Origin: Tritonibacter horizontis
Lineage (GTDB): Bacteria > Pseudomonadota > Alphaproteobacteria > Rhodobacterales > Rhodobacteraceae
Assembly: GCF_001518015.1 (NCBI RefSeq)
Contig: NZ_LPUY01000060.1
Coordinates: 1-64,000, forward strand
Length of the DNA stretch: 64,000 bases
Reading direction: 5' to 3'
Part shown: positions 24,076-54,359 of the stretch, piece after piece
How the letters are laid out: every line of letters starts with the position of its first letter
How positions within the stretch are numbered: the first letter of the stretch is position 1
Program-made: the position numbers and the translations under genes
Notes under the pieces: model-generated
The model's database searches: none
The model's input: the letters and a program-made list of their open reading frames with translations, nothing else
What the model was told of the DNA's origin: nothing

Positions 24076-24129
24076 TTGAACTTGGTCCGCATCTTCGCTA
24101 ATATTCTAACAAATGTTAGATTATTAGCG
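24076..24129 (+). promoter_or_regulatory. promoter and operator of the catabolic operon (site 1)
   Basis: TTGAAC (24076-24081), 17 bases, then TAATAT (24099-24104). The -10 box lies in a 34-bp inverted repeat (24096-24129) with 15-base arms matching at 14 positions around AAAT. Its core TCTAAC-AAAT-GTTAGA (24105-24120) recurs three more times in the window. A repressor here would block transcription; the site suits a TetR-type regulator. Confidence 0.85.
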
Positions 24130-24139
24130 AAGGGATCAT

Positions 24140-25348
24140 ATGACCTCCCCACTTCATCAGCTGAAAATCATCGAGCTCGGTCATGTTATTGCTGGACCAC
24201 TCTCGACCTCGCTGCTTTCTGATTTTGGGGCAGACGTCATCAAGATCGAGGCGCCCAACCGAACGGACATGATGCGCGACCTCGGGCCCAAGGCCGGGGA
24301 CGGGGTCGGCGTCTGGTGGAAGACGCTGGGCCGCAACAAGAAGATTCTGAGCCTCGACTGGAAGTCGGGCGAAGGACGGGACATCCTGCGCAGACTGGTT
24401 GAAAGCGCCGACGTACTTGTTGAAAATTTCCGGCCAGGCGTGCTTGAACGTGCGGGTATCGGGCCCGAAACTCTGCATGAGTGGAACCCGGATCTGGTTA
24501 TTCTGCGCGTTTCGGGTTACGGTCAGGGCGGCCCGATGCGGGACGTGCCCGCTTTCGGGCGCGCGGCAGAGGCGATGAGTGGTCTCGCCCATCTGACTGG
24601 TTTTGCGGACGGGCCACCGATGCACCCCGGATTTCCAGCGGCCGACAGCACGACAGGGTTGATGGGTGCTTTGGGGATCATGATCGCGCTGTTTGCCCGG
24701 GAAAAAGGGATTGCGCGTGGTCAGGTCGTCGATCTTGCGGTGTTCGAGGCGCTGCTTCGACTGATGGACTATCCCGTGCCCGCATTGACGGGCGCGAACC
24801 TCTCGCCGCGGCGCAACGGGCTGCGCCAGCCGATGGATTTTGCGCCGGGGGGCATGTTCCGAACCTCTGATGGGGTGTGGGTGACCGTTTCGGCTGGCAG
24901 TGCAGAAACAGCGCAACGCCTGTTGCGGGCGGTCGGCGGAGACGCGCTGGCCGATGATCCGCGGTTCGCTACTCTCGGCGAGATGTCGCAGCATATGGCC
25001 GTGGTCTTCGACGCCATAAACGATTTCGTCACGCAACACACGCTTGCGGAAGTCGAGGCGGAGTTTGCCCGCCATGATGCGGTTGCCTCTCGTGTGCTGA
25101 GCGTCGAGGAGATCGTGACGAATGAGCAGATACGTCATCGCGGCGACATCGTATCGGTTGAGGGCGAGCAAACGCAGGTGATCGGACCTATTCCGCATCT
25201 CAGCGCCACCCCCGGTGAGTTGCGCTGGCTAGGGCGGCCGCCGGGCGCGGACAGCCGAAGCATTCTGCGCAATCTTGGATATGACGACGACCGGATCTCT
25301 GCCCTGTGTGAGGCAGGGTTTGTAGGTGTGGATGGGAGCGAGACATAA
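24140..25348 (+). CDS. CaiB/BaiF (family III) CoA-transferase 1
   Basis: A 402-residue family III CoA-transferase. The N-terminal Rossmann-like part has LKIIELGHVIAGPLSTSLLSDFGADVIKIEAPN, and the probable catalytic aspartate lies in HPGFPAADSTTGLMGALGI (about residue 170), as in formyl-CoA transferase. These enzymes move CoA between carboxylic acids and activate substrates without ATP. It is the first gene after the strong operator-controlled promoter (24076-24129), with GAAGGGATC before its ATG. It overlaps the next gene by one base (TAATG). Substrate is unknown. Confidence 0.9.
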   Translation: MTSPLHQLKIIELGHVIAGPLSTSLLSDFGADVIKIEAPNRTDMMRDLGPKAGDGVGVWWKTLGRNKKILSLDWKSGEGRDILRRLVESADVLVENFRPGVLERAGIGPETLHEWNPDLVILRVSGYGQGGPMRDVPAFGRAAEAMSGLAHLTGFADGPPMHPGFPAADSTTGLMGALGIMIALFAREKGIARGQVVDLAVFEALLRLMDYPVPALTGANLSPRRNGLRQPMDFAPGGMFRTSDGVWVTVSAGSAETAQRLLRAVGGDALADDPRFATLGEMSQHMAVVFDAINDFVTQHTLAEVEAEFARHDAVASRVLSVEEIVTNEQIRHRGDIVSVEGEQTQVIGPIPHLSATPGELRWLGRPPGADSRSILRNLGYDDDRISALCEAGFVGVDGSET

Positions 25349-26514
25349 TGACATTTCGGATGACGGGTGATCAAAAGGAAATTCGAGATCAGATCCTGCG
25401 TATATGTGCGCAGTTCGATGACGACTTCTGGCTGGACCGGGATCGGAACGGTGGTTTCCCGCATGAATTGCACAGGGCGATGGCAGATGGTGGCTGGCTT
25501 GGTATTGCCATGCCGGAAGACGTCGGCGGTTCTGGTCTAGGGATCACCGAAGCGACCATCATGATGCAGGCGATTGCCGAATCGGGGGCTGGCGCCAGCG
25601 GGGCCTCGGCCATCCACATGAACATTTTCGGGCTCAACCCGGTGGTCAAGTTCGGAACCGATGAACAGCGCGCGCGCATGCTGCCCCCCCTGATCGCCGG
25701 CGATCAAAAAGCTTGTTTCGCTGTAACCGAGCCGACGACCGGGCTGGATACGACCAAGCTGAAAACCATGGCGGTGCGACAGGGAGATAGGTATGTCGTG
25801 CACGGGCAGAAGGTCTGGATCTCGACCGCGCAGGTGGCGGACAAAATGTTACTTTTGGCCAGAACAACGCGGCTTGAGGATGTGATCAACCCGACCGAAG
25901 GGCTGAGCCTGTTCTATACCGATCTCAACCGCGATTTCGTTGATGTGCGAGAGATCGAAAAGATGGGGCGCAAGGCGGTCGATTCGAACGAGGTTTTCAT
26001 AGACGGGCTGCCTATACCGGCTGAAGACTTGATCGGAGAAGAGGGCAAGGGTTTCCGGCAAATCCTGCATGGGCTGAACCCGGAACGCATCCTGGTGGCA
26101 GGCGAATGTATCGGCATCGCCCGCAATGCTCTGGCACGCGCAGCGCAATATGCCAAAGAACGGGTGGTTTTCGACCGGCCAATCGGTCAGAATCAGGGCG
26201 TTCAGCATCCGCTGGCTCAGGCTTGGGCGCGGGTGGAATCGGCCAATCTCATGGTGATGCACGCCGCTGCCCTTTACGATGCGGGAGAGCCTTGCGGCAT
26301 CGAAGCGAACGCAGCCAAGCTTTTGGCCGCCGACGCCGCGGTCGAGGCAACCGAGGCCGCACAGATCACCTTTGGCGGGTTCGGATACGCCAAGGAATAT
26401 CACGTGGAGCGGCTGGTCCGGGAAGCACTGTTGTTCCGTATCGTACCGGTGACGCCACAGATGCTTTTGTCGTTCATAGCGGAAAAAGCGCTTGGACTTC
26501 CAAAGTCTTACTGA
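25348..26514 (+). CDS. acyl-CoA dehydrogenase
   Basis: A 388-residue FAD-dependent acyl-CoA dehydrogenase. It shows CFAVTEPTTGLDTTKLKTMAV with the flavin-binding WIS motif (KVWISTAQ), RVVFDRPIGQNQGVQHPLA, and the C-terminal AQITFGGFGYAKEYHVERLVREA. It resembles the enzyme at 62318-63481 along most of its length, so the two are probably paralogues. It is translationally coupled to the CoA-transferase upstream and should oxidise the acyl-CoA made by it, giving electrons to EtfBA encoded downstream. Confidence 0.9.
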   Translation: MTFRMTGDQKEIRDQILRICAQFDDDFWLDRDRNGGFPHELHRAMADGGWLGIAMPEDVGGSGLGITEATIMMQAIAESGAGASGASAIHMNIFGLNPVVKFGTDEQRARMLPPLIAGDQKACFAVTEPTTGLDTTKLKTMAVRQGDRYVVHGQKVWISTAQVADKMLLLARTTRLEDVINPTEGLSLFYTDLNRDFVDVREIEKMGRKAVDSNEVFIDGLPIPAEDLIGEEGKGFRQILHGLNPERILVAGECIGIARNALARAAQYAKERVVFDRPIGQNQGVQHPLAQAWARVESANLMVMHAAALYDAGEPCGIEANAAKLLAADAAVEATEAAQITFGGFGYAKEYHVERLVREALLFRIVPVTPQMLLSFIAEKALGLPKSY

Positions 26515-26560
26515 CCGCGAGTCACGTTCTGGGACAGTGTACATTCTCTGCTTGTTTTTT

Positions 26561-26578
26561 TTCTAACGAACGTTAGAA
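26561..26578 (+). promoter_or_regulatory. operator site 2
   Basis: TTCTAACGAACGTTAGAA, a perfect inverted repeat with a 4-base centre, lies 43 bases before the SDR start. A possible TTGTTT (26552-26557) and TAGAAT (26574-26579) flank or overlap it, suggesting a second promoter inside the operon under the same regulator. Confidence 0.75.
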
Positions 26579-26620: not shown

Positions 26621-27475
26621 ATGAGTGAGACGCAGTTCGGGTCTTCGCGAGAGGACCTGTCAAAACGTACAACCGTTTACGCACAAGATTTGTTCGCGGG
26701 AAAAAACGTCGTTGTAACCGGCGCAGGTGGCGGATTGGGGCTGGCAATTGCGGTTCTGTTCGCCAAGCTGGGCGCCAATCTGGCGATCAATGGACGCAAC
26801 GAGGAAAAGCTGGCCTCGGCCAAAGAGTACCTCGAGAGCTTTGGCGGCAGGGTTTTCGCCAAGCCCATGACCATCCGTGACCCTGAACAGGTCGAGGATT
26901 TTGTCGCCAAGACAAATCAGGAATTCGGTTCCATAGACGTTTTGGTGAACAATGCAGGGGGCCAGTTTCCGCAGGCCGCGCTGGATTTTTCCTCGAAAGG
27001 TTGGAACGCCGTTATAGACACCAACCTCAACGGAACCTGGTGGATGATGCAGTCCACCGCGCGCCACTGGGTTGCGAGCAAGAAACCGGGTTCCATCGTG
27101 AACATCGTGGCCGATATCTGGCGCGGCATGCCCGGCATCGCGCATACCTGTGCCGCGCGGGCAGGGGTGATATACTTGTCCAAATCGGTCGCGGTAGAGT
27201 GGGCGCCGCATGGGATTCGCGTGAACTGCGTGGCACCGGGTTGCTGTGAAAGCAACGGTTTCGGGAATTATCCTGCAGAGGGTGCCGCAACCTTTCAGGA
27301 CTCCAATCCGATGCGGCACGCCGGGGACGAATGGGATGTCGCTGAAGGCGTTGTCTATATGGCAGCCAATTCCGGTAAATTTGTAACCGGCGAAGTTCTG
27401 AACATCGACGGTGGGCAACAATTGTGGGGAGATCCATGGCCAACGGGGCGACCGGACTACTTCCGGATTTCCTGA
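26621..27475 (+). CDS. SDR of the 2,4-dienoyl-CoA / trans-2-enoyl-CoA reductase type
   Basis: A 284-residue short-chain dehydrogenase. The cofactor motif TGAGGGLG is at 33-40 and NNAGG is in LVNNAGGQFPQA. Instead of the usual Y-x-x-x-K, the catalytic segment reads HTCAARAGVIYLSKSVAVEWAPHG, the pattern of the DECR/PECR enoyl-CoA reductases, which lack that tyrosine. It therefore probably reduces an unsaturated acyl-CoA with NADPH. The start at 26621 is fixed by GGGAGGAGG; the upstream ATG at 26588 has none. It follows operator site 2. Confidence 0.85.
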   Translation: MSETQFGSSREDLSKRTTVYAQDLFAGKNVVVTGAGGGLGLAIAVLFAKLGANLAINGRNEEKLASAKEYLESFGGRVFAKPMTIRDPEQVEDFVAKTNQEFGSIDVLVNNAGGQFPQAALDFSSKGWNAVIDTNLNGTWWMMQSTARHWVASKKPGSIVNIVADIWRGMPGIAHTCAARAGVIYLSKSVAVEWAPHGIRVNCVAPGCCESNGFGNYPAEGAATFQDSNPMRHAGDEWDVAEGVVYMAANSGKFVTGEVLNIDGGQQLWGDPWPTGRPDYFRIS

Positions 27476-27513
27476 TGAAAGCCATGAACCTTAGTGGGGA
27501 CAATAGGATCTAC

Positions 27514-28320
27514 ATGACGACGAAAAACAAAATTTCAGCTGGCGCCGATGACGGGTCGATACTCGAGTGCAGCGGGATCGAACGCCGGTTTGGCGGCATC
27601 GTCGCTGTTACGGGGGTGGATCTCGTTATTCAACGGGGAGAAATCTTTGGGCTTGTCGGTCCGAATGGGAGTGGCAAGACAACACTGACGAACGCTATCA
27701 CCGGGTTTTACCCGCCAAATGTGGGGGCTGTACGGCTGGCCGGGCGCGACATCACGGGCATGGCTCCTCACAAGGTGGCCAAGCTCGGGGTTGCCAGAAC
27801 GTTCCAGAACCTTGCCCTGTTCAACGGGATGAGTGTTCTCGACAACATCTTGCTCGGGCGGCACATCCACCTGAAACCGGGCGTCCTGCGCACGGCGCTC
27901 TATTGGTGGGCCGCACGACATGAAGAAATCGAGAACCGCAAGATCGTCGAGGAGGTGATCGAGTTTCTGCAGCTTGAAGGCATTCGGCATGAATTGGTCG
28001 ACGGTCTTCCGATCGGGCTGAAAAAGCGGGTCGAGCTTGCACGGGCACTTGTGGCAGAGCCGCAGATGTTGATCCTTGATGAGCCGATGGCGGGCATGAA
28101 TCAGGAAGAGAAGGGGTATATGTCCCGCTTCATTCTGGATGCCCGTGCCGAACGTGGCGTCAGCGTTCTCCTGATCGAGCACCATATGGATGTCATAACT
28201 GGCATTTGTGATCGGATGCTGGCGTTGAATTATGGCGAAATGATCGCCAGCGGCATTCCGAAGGACGTTGTAAAAGACCCGCGGGTCGTCAAGGCATATA
28301 TCGGAGGGTCGCATGACTGA
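27514..28320 (+). CDS. livG: branched-chain-type ABC transporter ATPase (LivG-like)
   Basis: A 268-residue ABC ATPase: Walker A GPNGSGKT, then GVARTFQNLALFNGMSVLDNILLGRH typical of LivG, Walker B LILDEPMAGM, and the H-loop IEHHMD. A consensus LSGGQ signature is replaced by IGLKKRVELARALV, as in some LivG proteins. With LivF it powers the LivHM permease. ATG 27514 was preferred (AGGAT upstream) over ATG 27475, which overlaps the SDR stop as TGATG. It overlaps the acyl-CoA synthetase start by eight bases. Confidence 0.9.
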   Translation: MTTKNKISAGADDGSILECSGIERRFGGIVAVTGVDLVIQRGEIFGLVGPNGSGKTTLTNAITGFYPPNVGAVRLAGRDITGMAPHKVAKLGVARTFQNLALFNGMSVLDNILLGRHIHLKPGVLRTALYWWAARHEEIENRKIVEEVIEFLQLEGIRHELVDGLPIGLKKRVELARALVAEPQMLILDEPMAGMNQEEKGYMSRFILDARAERGVSVLLIEHHMDVITGICDRMLALNYGEMIASGIPKDVVKDPRVVKAYIGGSHD

Positions 28321-30232
28321 TTTGACGGAGAAAATGTCTTCGGGCGGCGAAACGATTGGTGCACTTCTGGCGCGGAACGCGTCGCGCCACGGAAAGGATA
28401 TCGCGCTTCGCGAAAAGAAACGCGGGATCTGGGAAGAAACCACTTGGGCGGAATACGCCGAAGAGGTGCTTGCCTGCGCGGCCGGACTTGAAAAGATCGG
28501 CGTAGGGCCGGGCAAGGCTGTACTTATCCTGGGCGACAACCGTGCACGGCTATATGGCGGCATGCTGGCTGTTTCGTTGCTCGGTGCATATGCAATGCCG
28601 GCTTATCCCGGCGCGACACTCGAAGAACTTCGGCACTTTCTTGGCGAAGTCGAAATCGTCGCGGCCATCGCCGAAGATCAGGAGCAGGTCGACAAGATCC
28701 TGGAACTGAAGGGCGCGGGCGCTGAGGGTATCAGCCACATCATTTATGATGAAGCGCGAGGCCTCGGATTCTATGAGGTTGACGGGCTGATGTCCTGGGA
28801 TCACCTGATCGAAGTCGGGCAGCACGTTCTTAATGAAACCCCGGGCTTGCGCGAAGATCTCTTTGGTCGGGCAAAGCCCGGCGATCCGGCCATTTTCATG
28901 CATTCGTCAGGGACCACTGGAAAGCCGAAAGGTATCGTTCTGAGTCAAAAGAACGTTCTTGCTGCGGCCAGGAACGGGCATGCAGCGGGTGTATTCGAGG
29001 AAAACGAAGAAATCCTCGCCTATCTGCCGATGGCCTGGGTGGGCGACTTTGCCATCACCGTCGCGGCGGCGCTGCTCTGTCGGTTCACCGTGAACGTGCC
29101 TGAACGTCAGGAAACCGTTGTTCGCGACATGCGCGAAATCGCTCCGACATTCTATCTGGCGGCACCGAGAAGCTGGGATCAAATGCTGACGACTATCCAG
29201 GTGGGCATGGAGAACTCGACCCCGGTCAAGAAATGGCTTTACCATTTCTTCATGGACCGGGCGATCGCCGCCGAGACACGCAAGCTGAATGGCAAAAGCG
29301 GCGGTCTACTAGAGCCTTTTGGCCGACTTTTGGGTGAAGTGATGGTTTTTGGTCCGATCAAGGATCAATTTGGCATGAGCCGCCTGAGAAGTGCGTTTAC
29401 CGGTGGTGAGGCGATTGGCGAAGATACCTTCGTGTTCTACCGCGCCCTCGGGATCAAGCTGCGCCAGTTTTACGGCCAGACCGAGAACAGCGCGATCACC
29501 GCGATGCAGGCCCCCAACGAAGTGCGCCTGCATACCGTCGGCAAGCCCGCGCCGGGTGTCGAGGCGAAGATTGACGAGAGCGGTGAAATCCTCTTGCGCG
29601 CGGAAAGCGTGTTTGAAGGGTACTTCAATAAACCCGAAGCGACCGCCGAAGCCCTGACGGACGGGTGGCTGCATACTGGCGATGCCGGTTACTTGGAGAA
29701 AGACGGCCAACTGGTTGTTCTGGGACGTGTCTCCGAGGTCATGCATACGGCCGGAGGCGAGCGCTATGTGCCAAACTACATCGAGAACCGGTTGAAGTTC
29801 AGCCCGTATATCAAGGATGCGGCTGTTATCGGCGCTGGTCTGGACGAATTGACGGCCATGGTCTGCATGGATTTCGAGGCAGTGGGACACTGGGCCGAAG
29901 TGAACGGAGTTCCTTATGTGTCCTATTCCGATCTGTCTCAACGCGACGAGGTCGCCGCGCTGCTGCGCCCTGCTTTCGAAAGGGTAAACAAGGTCGTCAC
30001 CGAGCCGCTTCGCCTGAAGCGCTTTGTCTGCCTTCCAAAGGAATTCGACCCGGACGATGGTGAGATAACGCGGACCCGAAAACTGCGACGCAAGGTCGTG
30101 CAGGAGCGCTATGCCGACGTAATCGCGGCGCTCTACGATGGTACAAAAGAGGTCCATGTAAGCGCGCAGGTGACTTACGAGACCGGGGAAGTAGGGAAGG
30201 TCGAAAGAAGCCTTCCCGTTAGGGAGGTATAA
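28313..30232 (+). CDS. long-chain-type acyl-CoA synthetase (AMP-forming)
   Basis: A 639-residue adenylate-forming ligase. The phosphate-binding loop HSSGTTGKPKG is at about 197-207, the adenine motif in FYGQTENSAIT, and the hinge region GDAGYLEKDGQLVVLGRVSEVMHT. The length and AMP/long-chain layout fit FadD15-like enzymes. It sits between livG and livH and should convert the imported acid to its CoA thioester at the inner face of the membrane. The stop is directly followed by the livH ATG. Confidence 0.9.
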   Translation: MTDLTEKMSSGGETIGALLARNASRHGKDIALREKKRGIWEETTWAEYAEEVLACAAGLEKIGVGPGKAVLILGDNRARLYGGMLAVSLLGAYAMPAYPGATLEELRHFLGEVEIVAAIAEDQEQVDKILELKGAGAEGISHIIYDEARGLGFYEVDGLMSWDHLIEVGQHVLNETPGLREDLFGRAKPGDPAIFMHSSGTTGKPKGIVLSQKNVLAAARNGHAAGVFEENEEILAYLPMAWVGDFAITVAAALLCRFTVNVPERQETVVRDMREIAPTFYLAAPRSWDQMLTTIQVGMENSTPVKKWLYHFFMDRAIAAETRKLNGKSGGLLEPFGRLLGEVMVFGPIKDQFGMSRLRSAFTGGEAIGEDTFVFYRALGIKLRQFYGQTENSAITAMQAPNEVRLHTVGKPAPGVEAKIDESGEILLRAESVFEGYFNKPEATAEALTDGWLHTGDAGYLEKDGQLVVLGRVSEVMHTAGGERYVPNYIENRLKFSPYIKDAAVIGAGLDELTAMVCMDFEAVGHWAEVNGVPYVSYSDLSQRDEVAALLRPAFERVNKVVTEPLRLKRFVCLPKEFDPDDGEITRTRKLRRKVVQERYADVIAALYDGTKEVHVSAQVTYETGEVGKVERSLPVREV

Positions 30233-31120
30233 ATGGATTGGGTCTTTCTATCCGAACTTGCGATCAACGGAGCCCTGACGGGTCTGTTGTATTCGCTGTT
30301 CGCCATCGGCCTCGTGCTGATCTACAAGGCGTCCTCTGTGCCCAATCTGGCGCAGGGCGGGCTGACGATGGTGGGAGCCTATGTGGTTCTTGCCTTGTCG
30401 CACGATGCGGGTTTGCCATTGTGGCTGGCCATTCCGCTTGCCGCAGTTATCATGTTCGGCTTGGGTTTTGGCATCGAGCGGGTGGCGCTTCGGCGTCTCG
30501 CCGGCCGACCGGTCATCATGATCCTGATGTTGACACTTGGCCTCGACATCTTTCTGCGGGGCACAACGCTTGCGATCTGGGGTGGGACATCGCGTTCGAT
30601 TGAACTGGGTGTCAGCTATGAACCGTTGTTCCTGGGTGACCTCTTCATCAGCCGCATCCATCTGGTCGGAGCCGGCGTTGCGGTTGCCCTCTTTGTCGCT
30701 TTCATGTTGTTCTTTCGAACCCGGACCGGGATCAAATTGCGGGCGATCGCGGATGATTACATGGCATCATGGTCGGTCGGAATCTCGGTCGAACACGGTG
30801 TCGGGCTGTCCTGGGCCCTTGCGTCTGTGGTGGCCGTGGCGACAGGTGTCATCTGGGGCGAGATTCAGGGTGTCGATCAGGCACTGTCGCTTCTGCTTCT
30901 CAAAGGTCTGACTGTCGCAGTTCTGGGCGGTCTCGACAGCATTCTGGGCGCGATCGTTGCTGGCATCATTCTGGGCGTGATCGAAAATGTCGGCGCGGAA
31001 TTTCTTGATCCGCTTGTCGGAGGCGGCAGCCGCGAACTCATCGTCGCCGCCGTGCTCATTCTGACGGTCATGATCCGTCCGCATGGACTGTTTGGCCGTC
31101 ACGACATCGAAAGGGTGTAA
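30233..31120 (+). CDS. livH: branched-chain-type ABC permease (LivH-like)
   Basis: A 295-residue inner-membrane permease with about eight hydrophobic segments. It has the LivH pattern: INGALTGLLYSLFAIGLVLIYKAS near the start, PNLAQGGLTMVGAYV, and VAVLGGLDSILGAIVAGIILGVIENV near the end. Its ATG abuts the preceding stop codon. It pairs with the LivM-like protein encoded next. The substrate is more likely the carboxylic acid handled by the surrounding enzymes than an amino acid, by analogy with other catabolic Liv-type transporters. Confidence 0.9.
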   Translation: MDWVFLSELAINGALTGLLYSLFAIGLVLIYKASSVPNLAQGGLTMVGAYVVLALSHDAGLPLWLAIPLAAVIMFGLGFGIERVALRRLAGRPVIMILMLTLGLDIFLRGTTLAIWGGTSRSIELGVSYEPLFLGDLFISRIHLVGAGVAVALFVAFMLFFRTRTGIKLRAIADDYMASWSVGISVEHGVGLSWALASVVAVATGVIWGEIQGVDQALSLLLLKGLTVAVLGGLDSILGAIVAGIILGVIENVGAEFLDPLVGGGSRELIVAAVLILTVMIRPHGLFGRHDIERV

Positions 31121-31123
31121 GGG

Positions 31124-32197
31124 ATGTTTTATAGACTTTCCGGGGTTCATCATGCGAACTATGTTTCGGATAGCCGTATCTTCAAGGTACCTGCTGACCG
31201 TAACCTGACCGCATTTATTTTTCTGTTGGGTCTTGCTGCGCCGTTCATCATACCGTCGCTCTACCTGAACAGTTACATGTTGCCTTGGCTGATCTGGACG
31301 GCCGCCGCGCTTGGGCTGAACCTGGTGACAGGTTGGGCTGGCCAGCTTCACCTGGGCTATGCTGCCGTAATGGCGGTCGGAGCGTATTCGGCGATTCACG
31401 CGGCGCGCTTCGGGGTGCCATGGGAATTCGCCCTGATAATAGGCGGGTTGACGTCATCTGTGATCGGCAGCCTGTTCGCCTTTGCCGCATTGCGGGTCAA
31501 GGGTCTCTATCTCGCACTCACGACTCTTGCGATGCAATTCGTGATGGACTGGGTTCTGACCCACTCGCCGATGATTTCAGGTGGCTCGCACGCATCGCTT
31601 CAAGCGCCCACGCTGGCGCTGCTCGGGCAGGAGATTACTTCTGATACCGGGTATTACTATGTTGTCTTCGGATGGTGTGTGCTGGTGACGATTTTCATGC
31701 TCAACCTCAAACGCACCGCGCTTGGCCGTGCCTTGGTCGCCGTGCGGGAAAAAGACTTTGCCGCAGCGATCTTGGGTGTGAACAGTTTCTATTACAAGAT
31801 CCTGGCCTTCGCGACCTCGTCTTTCATTGCGGGTGTCAGTGGTGCCTTGCTTGTCGCCACCTTCTACTTTCTTGCAGCGCCAGAGCAGTTCTCAGTCTCC
31901 GTTTCAATCCAGGTTCTTGCTATGGTGATCGTTGGCGGTCTTGGCAGTATTATCGGATCCTATTTCGGTGTTGCCATGATCCTTCTTGTTCCCGGTCTGG
32001 TGAACGGTCTCGTCGTCGCGATGAGCAACGGGCTTGGCACGCAGGTCAACGTGGAAACTCTCGCTCACATTCCAAATGCGGTCTATGGCGCGCTGATCGT
32101 CATTATCCTTCTGATCGAACCGCTTGGATTGGGAAAACTCTACGGCAACATCAGAGACTACCTGATGGTCTGGCCCTTCGATCAGTTTAAGAAATAA
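31124..32197 (+). CDS. livM: branched-chain-type ABC permease (LivM-like)
   Basis: A 357-residue permease with an N-terminal cytoplasmic extension of about 25 residues followed by multiple hydrophobic segments. Diagnostic LivM stretches include NLVTGWAGQLHLGYAAVMAVGAY, FAALRVKGLYLALTTLAMQFV and ALGRALVAVREKDFAAAILGVN. It starts three bases after livH, with AAGGGATG overlapping the start. It forms the second half of the membrane channel. Confidence 0.9.
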   Translation: MFYRLSGVHHANYVSDSRIFKVPADRNLTAFIFLLGLAAPFIIPSLYLNSYMLPWLIWTAAALGLNLVTGWAGQLHLGYAAVMAVGAYSAIHAARFGVPWEFALIIGGLTSSVIGSLFAFAALRVKGLYLALTTLAMQFVMDWVLTHSPMISGGSHASLQAPTLALLGQEITSDTGYYYVVFGWCVLVTIFMLNLKRTALGRALVAVREKDFAAAILGVNSFYYKILAFATSSFIAGVSGALLVATFYFLAAPEQFSVSVSIQVLAMVIVGGLGSIIGSYFGVAMILLVPGLVNGLVVAMSNGLGTQVNVETLAHIPNAVYGALIVIILLIEPLGLGKLYGNIRDYLMVWPFDQFKK

Positions 32198-32202
32198 GGG
32201 AA

Positions 32203-46377: not shown

Positions 46378-46404
46378 GACGATGCCTCCCTGTGCAGTCG
46401 TGGT

Positions 46405-47214: not shown

Positions 47215-47241
47215 GGTTCTTTTCCTCCTCAGGGTATGGGT

Positions 47242-48393
47242 TCAGTCAGGCAATCCGAGGACGGCCTTGGACAGGATGTTTCGTTGGATTTCGTTCGATC
47301 CGCCGTAAATCGTCGTCGGTCTGGCCTTGTAGAAGCTCGCAAGGACATCGACACTTACATTGCCGACCTGAAGCGGGCCGACGGTGCCGCCATCGGGGCC
47401 GGCGGCCTCGATCATCAGTTCGGTGATGCGCTGAAAGCACTCGGTCACCCAGATCTTGAGCATCGAGACATCGGCGCCCAGCGTCTCGCCACGCTTCAGT
47501 TGGTCCGCAAAACGGGCATAAAGCGCCGCGTGATCTTCGACATCGAGCGCGGCCTGGGCAAAACGGTCGCGAAAAACCGGATCGTCGTACGCGCCACGGC
47601 CTCGGGCGAAACTTTCAAGCTGCCCCAACGCGTTCTGGGCCAGGCTTGGCGAGCCGATGAAGATGCGCTCGAAGCTCAGGAGCGCCTTGGCCATGCTCCA
47701 ACCCTTGTTCAACTCGCCCACGAGGTTCTCGCGGGGGGTACGGGCATTGTCGAAGAAGACTTCGCAAAACTCCGTCTCACCCGACAGGGTTGTGATCGTG
47801 CGCACGTCGACACCGGGCTGATCCATCGGAGCGAGCAGGAAGCTGATGCCCTGCTGCTTCTTCGGCGCGTTCGGATCGGTCCGAACCAGCATGAAGATGT
47901 GCGAGGCATCATGCGCCATCGTGGTCCAGATCTTCTGGCCATTGATGACGAAATCGTCGCCGTCAATCTCGGCACGCGTGCGCAGGTTGGCCAGATCGGA
48001 CCCGGCGCCGGGCTCGGAGTAGCCCTGGCACCAGATGTCTTCGCAGCTCAAAATACGTGGCAGCCAATAGTCTTTTTGTTTCTGAGTGCCAAACTTGATG
48101 ATCAGGGGGCCGACCATCTGCACACCCATGTCTCGGCCACGGTTGACACCCCCGCGCTGCTGCTCTTCGTAGAAGATCAGCAGCTTGGCGGCGTTCAGCC
48201 CCATGCCGCCGTATTCCGCGGGCCAGGCCGGCGCAACCCATCCCTTGGTGTGCAGCTTGCGATGCCAATGTTCGATCTCGGCGAATTTCGGGCGGTGTGG
48301 CAGATGGCGCAGTTCTTCGGGGTATTCCGTCTCGAAGAACTGGTGCACCTCTTTTCGGAACTCTGCATCGCTCATAGCGTTCCAGTCGGTCAT
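47242..48393 (-). CDS. acyl-CoA dehydrogenase, catalytic-type subunit of a probable heteromer
   Basis: A 383-residue acyl-CoA dehydrogenase with the normal flavin-site sequence QGYSEPGAGSDLANLRTRAEIDGDDFVINGQKIWTT and C-terminal PTTIYGGSNEIQRNILSKAVLGLPD. Its ATG at 48393 overlaps the stop of the following acyl-CoA dehydrogenase gene (ATGA). Two adjacent genes of unlike sequence, one lacking the GGSNEI end, is the pattern of the alpha2-beta2 enzymes (FadE28-FadE29, ChsE1-ChsE2) that oxidise steroid side chains. The heteromer is inferred from this. Confidence 0.88.
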   Translation of the reverse strand: MTDWNAMSDAEFRKEVHQFFETEYPEELRHLPHRPKFAEIEHWHRKLHTKGWVAPAWPAEYGGMGLNAAKLLIFYEEQQRGGVNRGRDMGVQMVGPLIIKFGTQKQKDYWLPRILSCEDIWCQGYSEPGAGSDLANLRTRAEIDGDDFVINGQKIWTTMAHDASHIFMLVRTDPNAPKKQQGISFLLAPMDQPGVDVRTITTLSGETEFCEVFFDNARTPRENLVGELNKGWSMAKALLSFERIFIGSPSLAQNALGQLESFARGRGAYDDPVFRDRFAQAALDVEDHAALYARFADQLKRGETLGADVSMLKIWVTECFQRITELMIEAAGPDGGTVGPLQVGNVSVDVLASFYKARPTTIYGGSNEIQRNILSKAVLGLPD

Positions 48394-49514
48394 TGTGCGA
48401 CTCCCTCTTCTTCGCGCGCGTCGAGCCAAATCCGCCTGTGATATACGTCGTCGCCCAACCAGGCCGACAGCACCAGCGCCCGGTTCAGATAAAGCCCGAT
48501 GTCAAACTCGTCAGTATAGCCGACCGCCCCGTGCAGCTGAATCGCGTCGCGCGTGATCTTCTTTGCGGCCGTGACAGCGCGCGCCTTGGCACGGCTTGCC
48601 AGCCGCGCGCGGATCTTCGGAACCGTTTCGCAATCCATCTGGGCCAGAACTTCGCGAACGCACGCTTGTGCAACCTCAAGCATGACATTCAGATCCACGG
48701 CGCGGTGCTGAATGACCTGGAACGACCCGATGGGCTTGTCGAATTGCTCGCGGGTTTTGATGTAGTCCAGAGTAATCTCAAATGCGCGATCACTCAGGCC
48801 GACAAGCTCGGCCGCGGCCAGGGCCGTTACATCGCTGATCGCCTCGGCGAGCGCATCCTGGACCGCGGAACCCTCAGCCAGTTGCTCTGCCGGAGTTCCG
48901 GAAAACGAAAGCTCGCCCAGCGAACTGCCGTCGGCCTGCACGCGCTTGTCGACGGAAAGTCCGTCTGCGGTGGCCTCGGTCAGGACGAGAACCGGACCAT
49001 TTTGCCCCCCGGCTACAACAAGGAATCCATGCGACCCGGCCGCGCCTACAACCCAAGCCTTGCTGCCGGTCAGTTTTCCGTCTGCGTAGCGGCATGTCGC
49101 ATCAGCGGGCGCTCCGCCCGGGCCGCGTTCCTGCCAGGCCACCGCCAAGGTGGTTTCGCCGTTGATGAGCTGCTCCATCTTCGGATGATCCGGGCGAAGG
49201 CGACGCAGAAGGCCGAGGCTCAGCCCGATCGTCAACACCACCGGTTCTGGGGCAATCACGCGGCCGACTTCCTCGGCGATGACGCCACCGGCGGCCAGGC
49301 CCATTCCAAGCCCGCCATTTGCTTCGGGCACCGTCACGCCGAAAACGCCGGCCCCAGCCAGTTCACCGATCATGTCCGAATCCCAGCCGCCACTGGCGTC
49401 ACGCAGTTTTCTGGCCCTTCCACTTCCGCCAGCCCGTTCAAACAGGGTGCGTGCGCTCTCGCGCAGCAGGCGAAGGTCTTCCTGGTCGCTGGAAAGCATA
49501 TCAGTCTGTGTCAT
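48390..49514 (-). CDS. acyl-CoA dehydrogenase, second subunit of a probable heteromer
   Basis: A 374-residue protein with an acyl-CoA dehydrogenase fold but diverged flavin region (CRYADGKLTGSKAWVVGAAGSHGFLVVAGG). The C-terminus is AIQLHGAVGYTDEFDIGLYLNRALVLSAWLGD, without the usual GG(T/S)NEI motif. It resembles the FadE29-like partner of a heteromeric dehydrogenase. It overlaps the MaoC gene by 14 bases at its start and the other subunit by four bases at its end, so all three are coupled. Confidence 0.85.
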   Translation of the reverse strand: MTQTDMLSSDQEDLRLLRESARTLFERAGGSGRARKLRDASGGWDSDMIGELAGAGVFGVTVPEANGGLGMGLAAGGVIAEEVGRVIAPEPVVLTIGLSLGLLRRLRPDHPKMEQLINGETTLAVAWQERGPGGAPADATCRYADGKLTGSKAWVVGAAGSHGFLVVAGGQNGPVLVLTEATADGLSVDKRVQADGSSLGELSFSGTPAEQLAEGSAVQDALAEAISDVTALAAAELVGLSDRAFEITLDYIKTREQFDKPIGSFQVIQHRAVDLNVMLEVAQACVREVLAQMDCETVPKIRARLASRAKARAVTAAKKITRDAIQLHGAVGYTDEFDIGLYLNRALVLSAWLGDDVYHRRIWLDAREEEGVAQ

Positions 49515-49950
49515 TTCGTTTTCGCTTCATCATCAATGGGACGTCAGCCGAAAGAACGACCTCGCCCTTGGGGTTCCTGGCGCTGAGCGTATAGTGCAAA
49601 ACACCTCGGTCGGGCTTGCTTTTGGACGGCGTGACCGAGTTGATCGTCATTTCGATATCGAGGGGTTCATCCGGGCGGACAGGCAGCAGCCAGCGCAGAT
49701 TGTCAAAGCCCATACCGCCTATGTTCGCCATGCCGGTCATCAAATCCGTCACGACAGGTTTGAACACCTCAAGCACGGTCTGAAATCCCGAGGCGATCAG
49801 GCTGCCATGTATCGCGGTCGCATAGTCTTCGTCGGTGTGCAGCCGTTGCGGGTCCCACTCCTGGGCAAACGCCTTTATGGACTGTGCGCTCATCGGGGCG
49901 CTGCGAAAGTGAAACACCTGGCCAGGTGCGAAATCTTCCAAATACTTCAC
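49501..49950 (-). CDS. MaoC-like enoyl-CoA hydratase, single hot-dog
   Basis: A 149-residue hot-dog protein with the R-specific hydratase motif EWDPQRLHTDEDYATAIHGSLIASG (catalytic Asp and His). The start is GTG at 49950, overlapping the preceding stop as GTGA. It should hydrate the double bond made by the coupled dehydrogenase. Single-domain MaoC proteins act as dimers, or as one half of a MaoC/DUF35 complex such as ChsH1-ChsH2. Confidence 0.85.
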   Translation of the reverse strand: MKYLEDFAPGQVFHFRSAPMSAQSIKAFAQEWDPQRLHTDEDYATAIHGSLIASGFQTVLEVFKPVVTDLMTGMANIGGMGFDNLRWLLPVRPDEPLDIEMTINSVTPSKSKPDRGVLHYTLSARNPKGEVVLSADVPLMMKRKRNDTD

Positions 49951-50666
49951 GTCGCCGGCTCCGCTGCAAAAGCGGAATCATACCCGCTCGAATCTCTGGA
50001 AATCCGAACGCGGTTGAACTCCTCCAGTTTCGGATAAGTTTCCGTGAAGGCCTTCAGGAACTCACCTATCGGCGCATCGACATAAAGACCCCGGTCGTTC
50101 ACATACTCCATGTGGCGCTGGTCCTGTTCGTCGAACTCGTGGAAAAGAGCGTCATGATAGCCGTCAAAGACCAGAGGCTTGACCCCGAATCTTTCACACA
50201 TCTCTGTGTTGAAAGCGGGTGTTACCTTGTAAGGTTCACCACCCAGCCACAGTTGAACGTAGCCGTGATAGATAAAGAGATCGGTCCCCATCAGCTCCTG
50301 CAGCTTGGGTGTATTCAGGTGGTTGCGCACATCTGCGAACCCCAAAGCGGCGGGGATACCGACGGCGCGCAGACAGGCCGCAAGCAGGATTGCCTTGGGG
50401 ACGCAGTACGCTGCCTTCACCCCGGCGATCCGGCTGGCACGATAGGAATCTTCATCCAGCGCAAAACAATACGGGTCGTAACGGATGTCGTCGCGAACCG
50501 CCTCGAACAAGCGGATCGCCTTGTCTCGTTTGGTCGCGCCCACAGGAAGATTGCGCAAAGCCGATGTGACGAAGCCCTGCACTTCGAGGCTGTCGCTTTC
50601 AACAAAGTGCGACGGCATGACATAGCGCTCGGCCTCCGCCGGCAGGTCGTCGTGGGGTTGGGCCAA
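49947..50666 (-). CDS. transglutaminase-like protein in the catabolic operon
   Basis: A 239-residue transglutaminase/protease-like protein: C88 in GVKAAYCVPKAILLAACLRAVGIPAAL, H134 in FIYHGYVQLWLGGEPYKVTPAFN. The third acid of the Cys-His-Asp triad is not at its usual place. The start is TTG at 50666, chosen because GGAGAGG precedes it by four bases and no in-frame ATG lies near; the ORF's own first codon (50726) sits in the promoter. First gene of the operon under operator site 3. Its link to acyl-CoA metabolism is unexplained. Confidence 0.8.
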   Translation of the reverse strand: MAQPHDDLPAEAERYVMPSHFVESDSLEVQGFVTSALRNLPVGATKRDKAIRLFEAVRDDIRYDPYCFALDEDSYRASRIAGVKAAYCVPKAILLAACLRAVGIPAALGFADVRNHLNTPKLQELMGTDLFIYHGYVQLWLGGEPYKVTPAFNTEMCERFGVKPLVFDGYHDALFHEFDEQDQRHMEYVNDRGLYVDAPIGEFLKAFTETYPKLEEFNRVRISRDSSGYDSAFAAEPAT

Positions 50667-50684: not shown

Positions 50685-50726
50685 TCTAACAAGTGTTAGA
50701 TTACAATCCGGAAACCTGCGGGTCAA
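50685..50726 (-). promoter_or_regulatory. promoter and operator site 3, leftward operon
   Basis: On the minus strand TTGACC (50726-50721), 17 bases, TAATCT (50703-50698). The operator TCTAAC-AAGT-GTTAGA as read on the plus strand (50685-50700) overlaps the -10 box. The layout is the same as at site 1. It controls the seven-step gene run from 50666 down to 45181. Confidence 0.85.
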
Positions 50727-50732: not shown

Positions 50733-51869
50733 TTATTCTGTCTTTCGCAAGTTCTGGGCAAAGCGGGTATTATCTTCCCCCAAGGCCGCAGCACGTCCGG
50801 CCGAACCTGCCGCAGATCGGAATTCCGGAGCAATTGGCAGCGGCAGCGCCGGTACCTCCCGACCGGAAATGTTCAGCTTTCGCTCGAATACGCCGCGTGC
50901 GATGAAATGCGGATCGGCCGCAGCTTCGGCGGGCGTTTTCACGACGGAACAACAACAGTCCGCCGCGGCCAGCAAAGACTCCCAATGGGTCGAGGGCTGG
51001 TCGCCCAGACGGCGCGTCACTTCCGCAACACTGGCATTGGGGTCGGACCAGTCATCACGAAGCTCCTGCGGCAGGCCGATGACATCGCAGAACGACTGCC
51101 AGAACTTTTCTTCCAACGCGCCAACGGCAATCTGACGTCCATCCGCAGCCGTATACAGCCGATACCGGGCCAGACCGCCTGTCAGGCGGCTGTGGCCGCT
51201 CTCGATGTTCTGCCCGGCGATCACAGCTTCGGCATGGGCCCAGTAGGCAAAGGCAAACGCCCCCTCGGACATGGCGATATCCAGATGCGTCCCCTGACCA
51301 CTTGCCTGCCGCGCAATCAGGGCCAGCAGGATATTCACCACCGCCGGATAGGTTCCGCCCCCGATATCAGCGACCAGCCCGAAGGGTATGGTTGGCTGGG
51401 CATCCGGACCACGGCTCAGTGACAGAATCCCCGAATCGCCCACATAATTGAGATCATGCCCGGCAGTCGAAGCCTTCGGGCCGGTCTGTCCATAGCCGGT
51501 GATCGAACAATAGATGAGACCGGGATTGATCTCGCGCACGGCCTCGTATCCCAGACCGAGCCGGTCCATCACTCCGGGGCGAAATTGCTCTACCAGAACA
51601 TCGGCCTTTTCAAGCAAAGGGCGCAGAACATTCATTGCGCCCTTTGACTTGAGGTCGATTGCCACCGACCGCTTGCCGTGATTCAAAACAGCGAAGCCAA
51701 TGCTCTCCCCGTCTATTTTCGGCGCGGTCAGGCGTGCGTCCTCACCCGTGCCCGGACGCTCGAACTTGATAACCTCGGCCCCGGCTTCGGATAACATGAG
51801 CGTGGCCATCGGGCCGGGAAGAAGGGTACTGAAATCCAGCACCAGGATGTCCTTGAGCGGCTGTGTCAT
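50733..51869 (-). CDS. CaiB/BaiF (family III) CoA-transferase 2
   Basis: A 378-residue CoA-transferase: ILVLDFSTLLPGPMATLMLSEAGAEVIKFERPG at the N-terminus, and a catalytic aspartate in FGLVADIGGGTYPAVVNILLALIA. The sequence is like alpha-methylacyl-CoA racemase relatives (NHGKRSVAIDLKSKGA), so either CoA transfer or racemisation of a 2-methyl acyl-CoA is possible. It is the last gene of the leftward run from 54317, 10 bases after the MaoC gene, and ends seven bases before the promoter of operator site 3. Confidence 0.85.
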   Translation of the reverse strand: MTQPLKDILVLDFSTLLPGPMATLMLSEAGAEVIKFERPGTGEDARLTAPKIDGESIGFAVLNHGKRSVAIDLKSKGAMNVLRPLLEKADVLVEQFRPGVMDRLGLGYEAVREINPGLIYCSITGYGQTGPKASTAGHDLNYVGDSGILSLSRGPDAQPTIPFGLVADIGGGTYPAVVNILLALIARQASGQGTHLDIAMSEGAFAFAYWAHAEAVIAGQNIESGHSRLTGGLARYRLYTAADGRQIAVGALEEKFWQSFCDVIGLPQELRDDWSDPNASVAEVTRRLGDQPSTHWESLLAAADCCCSVVKTPAEAAADPHFIARGVFERKLNISGREVPALPLPIAPEFRSAAGSAGRAAALGEDNTRFAQNLRKTE

Positions 51870-51879
51870 CGTCCCTCCC

Positions 51880-52737
51880 TCACGCGAAACGCGCAGCCCC
51901 GTTGTTTAGAACCACCACGTCGCGGGCCGGGATCGAAGCGCGGAACCGGGCCTCGCCACCCTCTTCCCAGATCTCAAACCGCACGGTCTCGCCGGGATAG
52001 ACCGGGGCGGAAAACCGCACGTCCAGCCCGACAAGCCGGGCGGCGTCATAATCGAGCAGCGATTTGAGGATCGCCCGCGCCGCCAGACCATAGGTCGCAA
52101 GGCCGTGCAGGATCGGGCGGTCGAACCCGACCGAACGCGCCACATCCGGGTCGGCATGAAGCGGGTTCATGTCACCGCTCAGGCGGTAAACCAGCGCCTG
52201 GCGCGGCAGTGTTTCGATATCGCAGACATGATCGGGCGCGCGGTCGGGCAAAGCCGTCGGGGCCGGGCCGGGCCTGTTTTCGCCACCGAACCCGCCATCG
52301 CCGCGGCAGAAGGCCGACATCGCCACGCGAGCCAGCTTGTCGCCGGTTTCCGCGTCAATGATTTCGCGACTCTGGTAGATGACGGCACCCTTGCCCTCGC
52401 CCTTGTCGGAAATAAAGTCGATCCGGCTGCGGCCGATGATGTTGCCCTTCACCGGCAGCGGCTTGTAGATGTCTAGCCATTGTTCACCATGCAGCACCTT
52501 CTGCCAGTTCACGCCGGTCTTGGGGTTGCGCAGCCAGAAGCCCGGATACCCCATCGTGACCGCCATCGAAGGAACGGCCCTCAGCCCATCTTCATAGACG
52601 AAGGCCAACTCTTTCCTGTCGGTCGGATCCTCGCCGAACCCGAGGCCGAGCGCATAAAGGATCGTATCCCGCTCGGTCAGCGTCTGCTCGATCTCTTCGA
52701 AGTCCCAGTTTGATAGCGCGTCCAAATCCAATGGCAT
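51880..52737 (-). CDS. MaoC-like 2-enoyl-CoA hydratase, double hot-dog
   Basis: A 285-residue R-specific hydratase related to the hydratase 2 part of peroxisomal MFE-2. The signature YRLSGDMNPLHADPDVARSVGFDRPILHGLATYG carries the catalytic Asp and His. The N-terminal hot-dog repeat lacks the motif, as usual. It follows the thiolase-like gene with a 23-base gap. It hydrates an enoyl-CoA to (3R)-hydroxyacyl-CoA, ready for oxidation or retro-aldol cleavage. Confidence 0.9.
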   Translation of the reverse strand: MPLDLDALSNWDFEEIEQTLTERDTILYALGLGFGEDPTDRKELAFVYEDGLRAVPSMAVTMGYPGFWLRNPKTGVNWQKVLHGEQWLDIYKPLPVKGNIIGRSRIDFISDKGEGKGAVIYQSREIIDAETGDKLARVAMSAFCRGDGGFGGENRPGPAPTALPDRAPDHVCDIETLPRQALVYRLSGDMNPLHADPDVARSVGFDRPILHGLATYGLAARAILKSLLDYDAARLVGLDVRFSAPVYPGETVRFEIWEEGGEARFRASIPARDVVVLNNGAARFA

Positions 52738-52760
52738 GATCTTTCCTCCGTCGATCGCTG

Positions 52761-53912
52761 TCAGAGCGTGTTTTGCGAACCCAAGATTGCCGTGACCTGA
52801 CTGGACAGCACACCGCCGTTCCCATGCGCCAGCGCCAGGTCGACATCCTTCAACTGAATGCCGGGAGCATCACCACGGATCTGCCGCGCCGCCTCGATCA
52901 CGGTGAAAATGCCATACATGCCGGGATGCACACAGGACAAACCCCCGCCATTGGTATTCACCGGCAAGACCCCGCCCGGCGCGATGCGCCCGCCCTCGAC
53001 AAAGGCACCGCCCTCGCCCTTGGCACAAAAGCCGAGATCTTCCAGAAATAGGATCGTATTGATAGTGAACGCATCGTAAAGCTCGACCGCCTGAATGTCC
53101 GAAGGCGACACGCCCGCCGCGGCAAAGGCGCGTGCGCCCGACTCGCGGGCGGCGGTCACGGTGAAATCCTTCATCTGCGATATTTGCCGGTGCGAGCTTT
53201 CCGCCGCGCTGCCCAAAACGTAAACCGGGGCCTTAGGGAAGTCCCTGGCACGGTCGGCGCGAACCATCACGATCGCCCCGCCGCCATCGGTGACAAGACA
53301 ACAATCGCGCACAGTCAACGGATCGCCCACCATACGCGCGCCCAAAACATCCGCGCGGCTGAGCGGGCCGCGCTCGAATGCCTCGGGGTTGTGCTGCGCC
53401 CAGGCCCGCGCGGCCACGGCCACATCGGCCAGCTGTTCGCGGGTGGTGCCAAATTCATGCATGTGCCGTGCCGCCGCCATCGCATAGGCGGAAATCGGAT
53501 ATCGCGGATTATAGGGCGCCTCATAGGCGGGCGGGCGCGAGGCCGTCACCAGCCTGCCCGACGCGGTGCGCTGGTTGGAGCCATAAACAATCAGCGCCAC
53601 ATCACACAGGCCAGCCTCCAGCGCCATTGTGGCGGAGGTCAGGTAATTCACGAAGGACGACCCGCCCGTCATGGTGCCGTCGATGAACCTGGGCTGAATG
53701 CCCAGATATTCGGCCGCCATAAGGGCAGGCATGCTGTCTTCCATCATGGTGCAGAGCAGACCGTCCACATCGGACAGCTTCAGCCCCGCATCGCCAAGTG
53801 CCGCAAGCGCGGATTGCGCCATGACATCATAGGCCGTCAGCCCATGCGCCTCGCCGAAACCCGCGTGCCCGGTTCCCACAATGGCGGATTTTCCCCGAAG
53901 TTTGGTGGTCAT
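52761..53912 (-). CDS. thiolase-fold lipid-transfer-type protein (possible retro-aldolase)
   Basis: A 383-residue thiolase-superfamily protein. At the position of the nucleophilic cysteine it reads IDGTMTGGSSFVNYLTSATMAL, with no Cys. The second region is NTNGGGLSCVHPGMYGIF and the end is DLALAHGNGGVLSSQVTAILG. This fits SCP-x/Ltp-type proteins. Its start lies three bases after the stop of a DUF35 gene; Ltp2 and a DUF35 domain form the aldolase that removes the last side-chain unit of steroids. A non-thiolase aldolase is therefore the preferred inference, not a proof. Confidence 0.85.
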   Translation of the reverse strand: MTTKLRGKSAIVGTGHAGFGEAHGLTAYDVMAQSALAALGDAGLKLSDVDGLLCTMMEDSMPALMAAEYLGIQPRFIDGTMTGGSSFVNYLTSATMALEAGLCDVALIVYGSNQRTASGRLVTASRPPAYEAPYNPRYPISAYAMAAARHMHEFGTTREQLADVAVAARAWAQHNPEAFERGPLSRADVLGARMVGDPLTVRDCCLVTDGGGAIVMVRADRARDFPKAPVYVLGSAAESSHRQISQMKDFTVTAARESGARAFAAAGVSPSDIQAVELYDAFTINTILFLEDLGFCAKGEGGAFVEGGRIAPGGVLPVNTNGGGLSCVHPGMYGIFTVIEAARQIRGDAPGIQLKDVDLALAHGNGGVLSSQVTAILGSQNTL

Positions 53913-53915
53913 GGC

Positions 53916-54317
53916 CTATACCTCCGCCGGTTTGAACAACACGGCCGGTTGGCCCTCGGCCCCGCCCACGAAGGCGGTCACGGCCATGTCGATGACAATG
54001 TCACCGGGGGCAATGCCCTCGACCCGGCTCATCATACGAACGCCTTCCTCCAGTTCCACCACGCACACGTTATAGTCGCCGCCGCGCTCGGGCTTCTGAC
54101 GCACGACAGTGGTGGTGTGGACCCGGCCCTTGCCGCTGGCGGGATGCCAAGAGATCGCGGTCCCATGGCAGTGCGGACACAGGACCCTTGGAAAGAAATG
54201 ATAGGCTCCGCAATCATCGCACCTGGGCAGCATGATCTCCCCGTTTGTCAGCGCGCGTTGGAATATCTGGTCTGGTCCTGTGGCGTCCGGCACCGGCATT
54301 CTCCTCAAATGGTCCAT
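53916..54317 (-). CDS. DUF35 (zinc-ribbon / OB-fold) acyl-CoA-binding partner
   Basis: A 133-residue DUF35 protein: zinc ribbon LPRCDDCGAYHFFPRVLCPHCHG with four cysteines, then an OB-fold (GKGRVHTTTVVRQKPERGGDYNVCVVELEEGVRMMSRV). These partners stabilise thiolase-like or MaoC-like enzymes. It is the first gene of the leftward unit from the divergent promoter at operator site 4, and is followed at once by the thiolase-like gene. The start could also be the ATG at residue 7 (54299). Confidence 0.9.
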   Translation of the reverse strand: MDHLRRMPVPDATGPDQIFQRALTNGEIMLPRCDDCGAYHFFPRVLCPHCHGTAISWHPASGKGRVHTTTVVRQKPERGGDYNVCVVELEEGVRMMSRVEGIAPGDIVIDMAVTAFVGGAEGQPAVLFKPAEV

Positions 54318-54343
54318 TCCTGGTTAATCGTATTGATAATATT

Positions 54344-54359
54344 TCTAACAGCTGTTAGA
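54344..54359. promoter_or_regulatory. operator site 4 in the divergent promoter region
   Basis: TCTAAC-AGCT-GTTAGA lies between the divergent DUF35 and CoA-transferase genes. TTGATA (54333-54338) with TAGATT (54356-54361) could serve the plus gene. A TTGACA on the minus strand (54368-54363) could serve the other. One bound repressor would then control both. Confidence 0.8.

Follow-up and report, generated by a model that had tools for sequence, protein, structure and literature searches.

A double-TetR protein as candidate repressor at a repeated palindromic operator on a plasmid-like contig of Tritonibacter horizontis

Introduction

Several TetR-type repressors of catabolic genes have been described together with the DNA they bind. 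The footprint of PsrA in Pseudomonas putida is TTCAAAC-N4-GTTTGAA (PMC13104628), KstR recognises a core of TnnAAC-N2-GTTnnA and binds its own promoter (PMC1995591), and AtuR binds two 13-bp inverted repeats, according to a title cited in PMC3511530. Mce3R of Mycobacterium tuberculosis (Rv1963c, PDB 9b7y) is a double TetR and an autoregulated repressor of lipid-related genes; it adopts an asymmetric M1-M2 fold with non-identical helix-turn-helix (HTH) units and binds 25-bp non-palindromic sites (PMC11667970), an article that also refers to 204 double TetRs predicted for Actinomycetes. Among the matches listed in our search of the open-licence literature, Mce3R was the sole case of a natural double or tandem TetR. 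Here we describe the palindrome TCTAAC-N4-GTTAGA, which recurs at the promoters of a catabolic island in a 64,000-nucleotide stretch of Tritonibacter horizontis (the window; positions 1 to 64,000 of contig NZ_LPUY01000060.1, hereafter C60), and its candidate regulator, a double TetR encoded further along the same contig. Among the literature matches listed, no title or abstract start named this motif, none named this island, and no paper described this double-TetR and operator system.

Results

An exact palindrome recurs at promoter positions on one contig

The earlier note on this DNA had reported four exact copies of TCTAAC-N4-GTTAGA, and our scan of the window returned these four, at the same places, and no fifth; the other eight of 12 window matches carry three mismatches, and chance suffices to account for them. 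Across the whole genome (4,862,077 bases in 139 contigs) there are six exact copies, every one on C60, two of them past the window end:

24105..24120, operator 1, TCTAACAAATGTTAGA, 20 bp upstream of caiB1-acdA (24140-26514, plus strand)
26562..26577, operator 2, TCTAACGAACGTTAGA, upstream of a 12-gene run (26621-39028, plus strand)
50685..50700, operator 3, TCTAACAAGTGTTAGA, upstream of a minus-strand run (50666-45181)
54344..54359, operator 4, TCTAACAGCTGTTAGA, between the divergent runs ob35-thiolase-maoC2-caiB2 (54299-50733, minus strand) and caiB3-caiB4 (54396-56725, plus strand)
74377, operator 5, past the window end
82310, the sixth site, past the window end

The reversed control pattern has no exact match in the genome, base composition predicts 0.095 exact copies per genome and 0.002 in C60, and 200 first-order Markov simulations of C60 produced none; on these grounds, chance was rejected as the origin of the exact sites. 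The palindrome is the commonest perfect one in C60 (6-bp arms, spacers of 0-12), and its arms are identical across the six sites while the flanks and central tetramers vary. All six copies are intergenic, and the nearest called start of a gene is 1-45 bp away, positions at which 11.3% (intergenic) or 3.9% (intergenic and ≤100 bp from a start) of C60 falls, the gene calls being those of a simple script in which single starts may be off. Frequent occurrence at non-promoter places, which the earlier note had named as speaking against a shared operator, was not seen for the exact motif. Allowing one mismatch adds three sites (C60:88739, C60:95969 and C20:4920), and specificity is gone at two or fewer mismatches, with 32 genome matches per strand versus 225 for the reversed control.

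The promoter candidates at these sites are consistent with occlusion, as judged from a consensus match that was picked post hoc. Operator 1 is abutted by TTGAAC-17-TAATAT, and operator 3 shares three bases with TTGACC-17-TAATCT on the minus strand. In four of the six sites a TAGAWT -10 candidate consists of the right arm and the two bases next to it, with a TTG -35 candidate 16-17 bp off; the other two sites are abutted or overlapped by a -10 candidate. Operator 4 does lie between divergent genes, as had been noted.

The sixth site adjoins a double-TetR gene

The earlier note had expected a TetR-type regulator of acyl-coenzyme A (CoA) catabolism whose own gene is preceded by the motif, and such a gene was found 18 kb outside the window, at C60:82335-83690 (plus strand). 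It begins 10 bp downstream of the sixth site, which separates it from a divergent SDR gene, whose called start (82309) touches the site and is annotated 66 bp further in on a close plasmid. The 451-amino-acid product, encoded in a frame that is open without internal stops, matches TetR_N at 119.6 bits (cut-off 24) and TetR_C_24 at 93.9 bits (cut-off 26.4), each over two stretches, which places it in the TetR family. The regulator is two complete TetR units in a single chain, not an ordinary TetR. Of the 31 TetR_N matches in the genome three are on C60, at 82443 and 83097 (the double TetR) and at 98326 (a single TetR, 98260-98889). A TetR inside the window was ruled out, with no TetR_N match among its positions; the earlier view that the window lacks a regulator holds for TetR proteins, other regulator classes not having been searched systematically.

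Across 207 aligned positions the N- and C-terminal halves share 39.6% identity. Their HTH units are more alike: averaged over 33 sequences, comprising this one and 32 relatives picked from the 80 described below, the halves agree at 58.7% over 45 positions of the HTH and at 63.5% in its recognition region, against 34.1% in the 28 residues after it; most of these sequences have the recognition segment AGS-x-YYH/Y-F (AGS[IVL]YYHF) in both halves. In a FastTree phylogeny of the same set the N halves form one clade and the C halves another (support 0.97 and 0.93), and the fusion therefore predates the 33 compared sequences. The start of the protein is uncertain: residues 1-22 were modelled with a predicted local distance difference test score (pLDDT) below 50, and in four relatives (L037, L043, L060 and L070) an in-frame stop falls among the first 12 codons from the homologous start.

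Exact sites and regulator occur together across genomes

We scanned 198 genomes of the same family for exact sites and for the regulator (E ≤ 1e-60). At least one exact site was present in 14, of which seven have 4-6 (G000, the genome studied here, with G044, G061, G138, G153, G161 and G189) and seven have one, and 191 genomes have none or one. The double TetR was found in seven genomes, precisely those with 4-6 sites (Fisher p about 5e-13 for at least two sites versus regulator, in genomes that are not independent). The specificity of the sites, their promoter position, their coupling to the regulator and the double-TetR architecture are established computationally.

The association extends to the regulator's own promoter. 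Among relatives of the regulator (the best 80 of 138 from named genomes), 78 have a site at the regulator gene that deviates from the motif by no more than one base, and in 58 this site is exact; the interval considered ran from 130 bp upstream to 80 bp downstream of where the match starts. One of the two exceptions, L077, is on a contig that starts within the gene. Together the 80 loci (1.5 Mb) hold 88 exact and 93 one-mismatch sites, where the reversed pattern gives 0 and 2. Whole-genome scans of ten of these genomes (regulator 52-78% identical) gave matches with at most one mismatch in all ten, and exact sites, at 1 to 6 each, in the nine whose matches were listed; the tenth, that of L077, has one in the locus.

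Gene partners of the sites are also retained, which is indirect evidence that the units are regulated in common. In the island stretches of G189, G161, G153, G138 and G044, which were fetched in part, exact sites lie between the double-TetR gene and sdr3, between oye and aliB, between tgl and caiB2, and between ob35 and caiB3 in all five. The site between tgl and caiB2, equivalent to operator 3, is exact in all six other genomes with the double TetR, and that between ob35 and caiB3, equivalent to operator 4, is also exact in G131. The equivalent of operator 2, before sdr1, is exact in G189, G161, G153 and G138, and that of operator 1, before caiB1, is seen as an exact site in G189, the sole such case in the compared genomes. 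In G061, where the regulator is 53% identical and gene order is rearranged, most site-gene partners persist, with one-mismatch sites before the double-TetR gene and sdr1 and exact ones before tgl, ltp and caiB3, the last lying between maoC2 and caiB3.

The seven single-site genomes were dismissed as counter-evidence to the coupling: G131 has island fragments, and in the other six no island gene adjoins the site (E ≤ 1e-20). In one of them, G077 (L127), no TetR was found among the open reading frames listed. In two others of the six, G001 and G167, the exact copy adjoins a divergent, unrelated single TetR gene, and sequence alone therefore does not identify the regulator. This occurrence could suggest that the palindromes are convergent sites of several regulators or copied promoter-region sequence, a reading we regard as very improbable, since the arms are identical while the flanks and centres of the six sites differ, and the presence or absence of at least four sites matches that of the regulator in all 198 genomes.

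In two other genera (L125:2086 and L126:2489) the exact palindrome with the centre ATAT lies between a gene read by eye as an HlyD-type efflux adaptor and a divergent single TetR (TetR_C_33) gene, the operator apparently having been reused there by an unrelated TetR.

Structure model and proposed mechanism

An AlphaFold model of the regulator built with the 33 sequences has a mean pLDDT of 84.3 and a predicted TM-score (pTM) of 0.83. Its best Foldseek match in the PDB is Mce3R (9b7y_A), which aligns along the whole chain (422 columns; TMq 0.64, TMt 0.74) with a root-mean-square deviation of 6.3 and 15% identity, a match compatible with the M1-M2 fold. The next matches are of half length, to single TetRs, among them PfmR, Bacillus subtilis FadR, KstR2 and AibR with isovaleryl-CoA, of which FadR, AibR and KstR2 are acyl-CoA-linked. 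By analogy with these neighbours, and from the gene context, the regulator may respond to acyl-CoA.

We consider it very likely that the protein is a repressor in a single chain that regulates itself and controls about 44 genes, probably for alicyclic or branched-acid oxidation, and that it is freed by an acyl-CoA of the pathway. The chain would fold into an Mce3R-like internal pseudo-dimer whose two HTH units could each take one arm of a single 16-bp palindrome, and the near-identical recognition helices predicted for the two halves fit the recognition of such a palindrome by one chain. One such repressor would occupy all six operators of the plasmid-like contig, that at its own promoter included, and would block the promoters of the target genes until a CoA thioester of the pathway released it. 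Binding, repression in preference to activation, the acyl-CoA ligand, the operon extents and the substrate are the parts of this scheme that we infer. Taking same-strand runs as the probable operons, the exact sites precede 44 of the 64 named island genes (2, 12, 6, 4+2, 11+2 and 4+1 behind operators 1 to 6).

It is unlikely that the double TetR is instead an activator, or that M1M1 and M2M2 units in a dimer of chains bridge two operators. Some TetR proteins activate. The quaternary option was weighed for Mce3R (PMC11667970), and six sites on one replicon would permit bridging. However, the sites overlap, abut or sit within the -35/-10 candidates, in keeping with occlusion, Mce3R itself was found to adopt the M1-M2 fold, and our model matches it along the entire chain.

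Variant sites and a second TetR

Most of the remaining island genes follow variant sites:

88739, TCAAAC variant, between acdH and ech6
95969, TCAAAC variant, upstream of ltp
98218, site with two mismatches, upstream of the single TetR gene and liu-like genes

The first of these, TCAAAC-N4-GTTAGA, combines one PsrA-type arm with one arm of the new type. At the acdH/ech6 position it occurs 62 times in the 80 loci, in a single orientation and with the centre AYAT throughout, and the double TetR is present in six of the eight genomes that have TCAAACANNTGTTAGA. The two halves, if not equivalent, might read some operators directionally, in one polarity at acdH/ech6 and in either at the perfect palindromes, a rather doubtful proposal for which common ancestry of the acdH/ech6 promoter is the plain alternative; if true, directional docking could set unequal repression of the two divergent operons.

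The single TetR gene at 98260-98889, in the liu/atu-like part of the island, has the third variant, CCTAACAGGTGTTAGT (98218-98233), 27 bp upstream, and a relative in G031 has the one-mismatch site CCTAACGTTTGTTAGA (L132:4255). This protein may be a local regulator with overlapping specificity. That it binds the TCTAAC-N4-GTTAGA sites, alone or jointly with the double TetR, is improbable in our judgement. Its likeness to the double TetR is real, with 36% identity to the C half, the recognition segment AGSIYYHF in common, and related sites before its own gene (CCTAAC-N4-GTTAGT) and that of G031 (CCTAAC-N4-GTTAGA). However, among the seven genomes with an orthologue (E ≤ 1e-45), G031 has no exact site, whereas G061 lacks an orthologue at this threshold and has the double TetR with four exact sites, and because of these two genomes the single TetR is unlikely to be the main regulator; G061 does hold a 38% similar gene adjoining caiB4. 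In G044 the orthologue (C88:5978-6586) carries one in-frame TAG, and the double TetR and four TCTAAC sites remain. A further argument against the single TetR is that 78 of the 80 relatives have a site at the gene of the double TetR itself.

Several observations nevertheless weigh against a double-TetR repressor as the one protein acting at these sites. The island carries both TetRs as linked genes, which are separated only in G061 and G031, the similar sites of the single TetR (98218) and of its G031 relative make cross-binding possible, and the palindrome stands beside unrelated TetRs in G001 and G167. The second exception among the 80 relatives, L089, is a regulator gene without a nearby site, and G131 (L123 and L124) has a partial island with an exact and a TCAAAC-variant site and no detectable double TetR, for which island decay, regulator loss or a missing contig in a fragmented assembly may account. 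The fourth exact site of G061 (C230) adjoins genes whose similarity to those of the island is just 32%. Once one mismatch is tolerated, the reversed control equals or exceeds the real count in nine of the ten genomes scanned whole, and therefore only exact sites are informative genome-wide. Finally, co-transfer of the island may account for some of the coupling between site and regulator.

Candidate target genes, pathway and plasmid context

The gene runs behind the operators of the window are as follows, assigned by Pfam or NCBIfam models except where made by eye:

24140..26514, plus strand, caiB1 (CoA-transferase III) and an acyl-CoA dehydrogenase (Pfam)
26621..39028, plus strand, SDR, LivG/H/M/F-type ATP-binding cassette (ABC) transporter with two binding proteins, AMP-binding acyl-CoA ligase and two enoyl-CoA hydratases (Pfam); two genes read as electron-transfer flavoprotein beta and alpha (by eye only)
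45181..50666, minus strand, transglutaminase-like protein, MaoC, two acyl-CoA dehydrogenases, enoyl-CoA hydratase, PaaK-like ligase (Pfam, NCBIfam)
50733..54317, minus strand, CoA-transferase (by eye), MaoC, thiolase-like protein, ChsH2-type OB protein (Pfam, NCBIfam)
54396..56725, plus strand, caiB3 and caiB4, two CoA-transferase III genes (by eye; caiB3 relatives adjoin the site elsewhere)
61466..64000, minus strand, the in-window end of the run behind operator 5, with MaoC-like, acyl-CoA dehydrogenase and citryl-CoA lyase-like genes

The candidate target families include CoA-transferase III, acyl-CoA dehydrogenases, the Liv-type transporter, ligases and MaoC, together with thiolase accompanied by the ChsH2-type OB protein, old yellow enzyme, hydratases, carboxylase and lyases. 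Two products fall under the cut-offs of their equivalog models, an AliB-like dehydrogenase (522.5 of 575.35 bits) and a BadH-like SDR (353 of 431.2 bits), while the subfamily models for citryl-CoA lyase and 3-hydroxy-3-methylglutaryl-CoA lyase exceed theirs; there is an AtuA match at 475.8 bits, and three carboxylase sets are on the island (one carboxyltransferase by eye). The family models point to steps of the cyclohexanecarboxyl-CoA type, and our best guess for the pathway is oxidation of alicyclic and/or methyl-branched, terpenoid-like carboxylic acids. Within the transporter operon, two neighbouring Peripla_BP_6 genes (33055-35642) could equip one ABC transporter for two substrates.

C60 looks like a repABC plasmid. 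Genes for RepC (RP-C), a ParB-type and a ParA-type protein occur in repABC order at 14055-17517, and a perfect palindrome with 7-bp arms TTTCCGG is found three times in this region (14461, 15624 and 17019), copies that could be parS sites. Among 72,556 plasmid records in PLSDB, 39 contain a relative of the double TetR (E ≤ 1e-50), and the two that were opened share much of the gene order. On plasmid pDSM107133_c a helix-turn-helix gene lies between thioesterase and NmrA-like genes (L101:15538-16263); about 90 bp stand in its place in C60 (78489-78581), where the gene is missing. The island is split at 39357-45121 and 58014-60375 by an IS66 transposase (40016-41566) and transposase- or resolvase-like genes (by eye).

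Discussion

The analysis names a candidate regulator, and defines an operator, for a widespread plasmid-borne catabolic island, which makes the island's regulation and substrate testable. The regulator has at least 80 relatives, and most genomes that were scanned whole hold several operators, so that the system is a good case for studying how DNA recognition evolves in fused repressor halves.

The earlier note had set the motif apart from those of PsrA, FadR and KstR, a distinction that stands for KstR and narrows for PsrA. KstR and KstR2, of mycobacterial steroid catabolism, are likewise TetR repressors of catabolic regulons with an AAC...GTT core (PMC1995591), but KstR is a single TetR unit with a spacer of two bases against four in our operator; its N2-spaced operator was not found at our sites, and the regulator scores 48.5 bits on the KstR model NF033703 (cut-off 280). 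PsrA is a TetR of acyl catabolism whose palindrome has the same geometry as ours, with arms of equal length the same distance apart and a single base changed in each arm, our sites having the arms TCTAAC and GTTAGA in place of TTCAAAC and GTTTGAA. It differs from the protein described here in being an ordinary homodimer (PMC13104628), its known targets concern fatty acids, and the regulator reaches 69.7 bits on the Vibrio PsrA model NF053516, against a cut-off of 300. AtuR, of acyclic terpene utilisation in Pseudomonas aeruginosa, is a TetR repressor beside an AtuA-type pathway, and the island holds a gene of the AtuA family, although this gene follows a variant site and no exact one.

The closest likeness is to Mce3R, which also has two TetR units per chain and is the top full-length fold match. 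The two differ in sequence, in the like recognition helices and predicted 16-bp palindrome of the regulator described here, and in distribution, Mce3R belonging to the Actinomycetes and this double TetR occurring in Alphaproteobacteria and one Marinobacter. In place of an asymmetric, non-palindromic operator of the Mce3R type, the candidate target promoters have six exact palindromes. With its simple palindromic site and its occurrence beyond the Actinomycetes, the protein would represent another kind of natural double TetR, the second after Mce3R. Double and single TetR repressors were already known; what is new here is a double TetR together with a palindromic operator repeated across a large mobile catabolic island.

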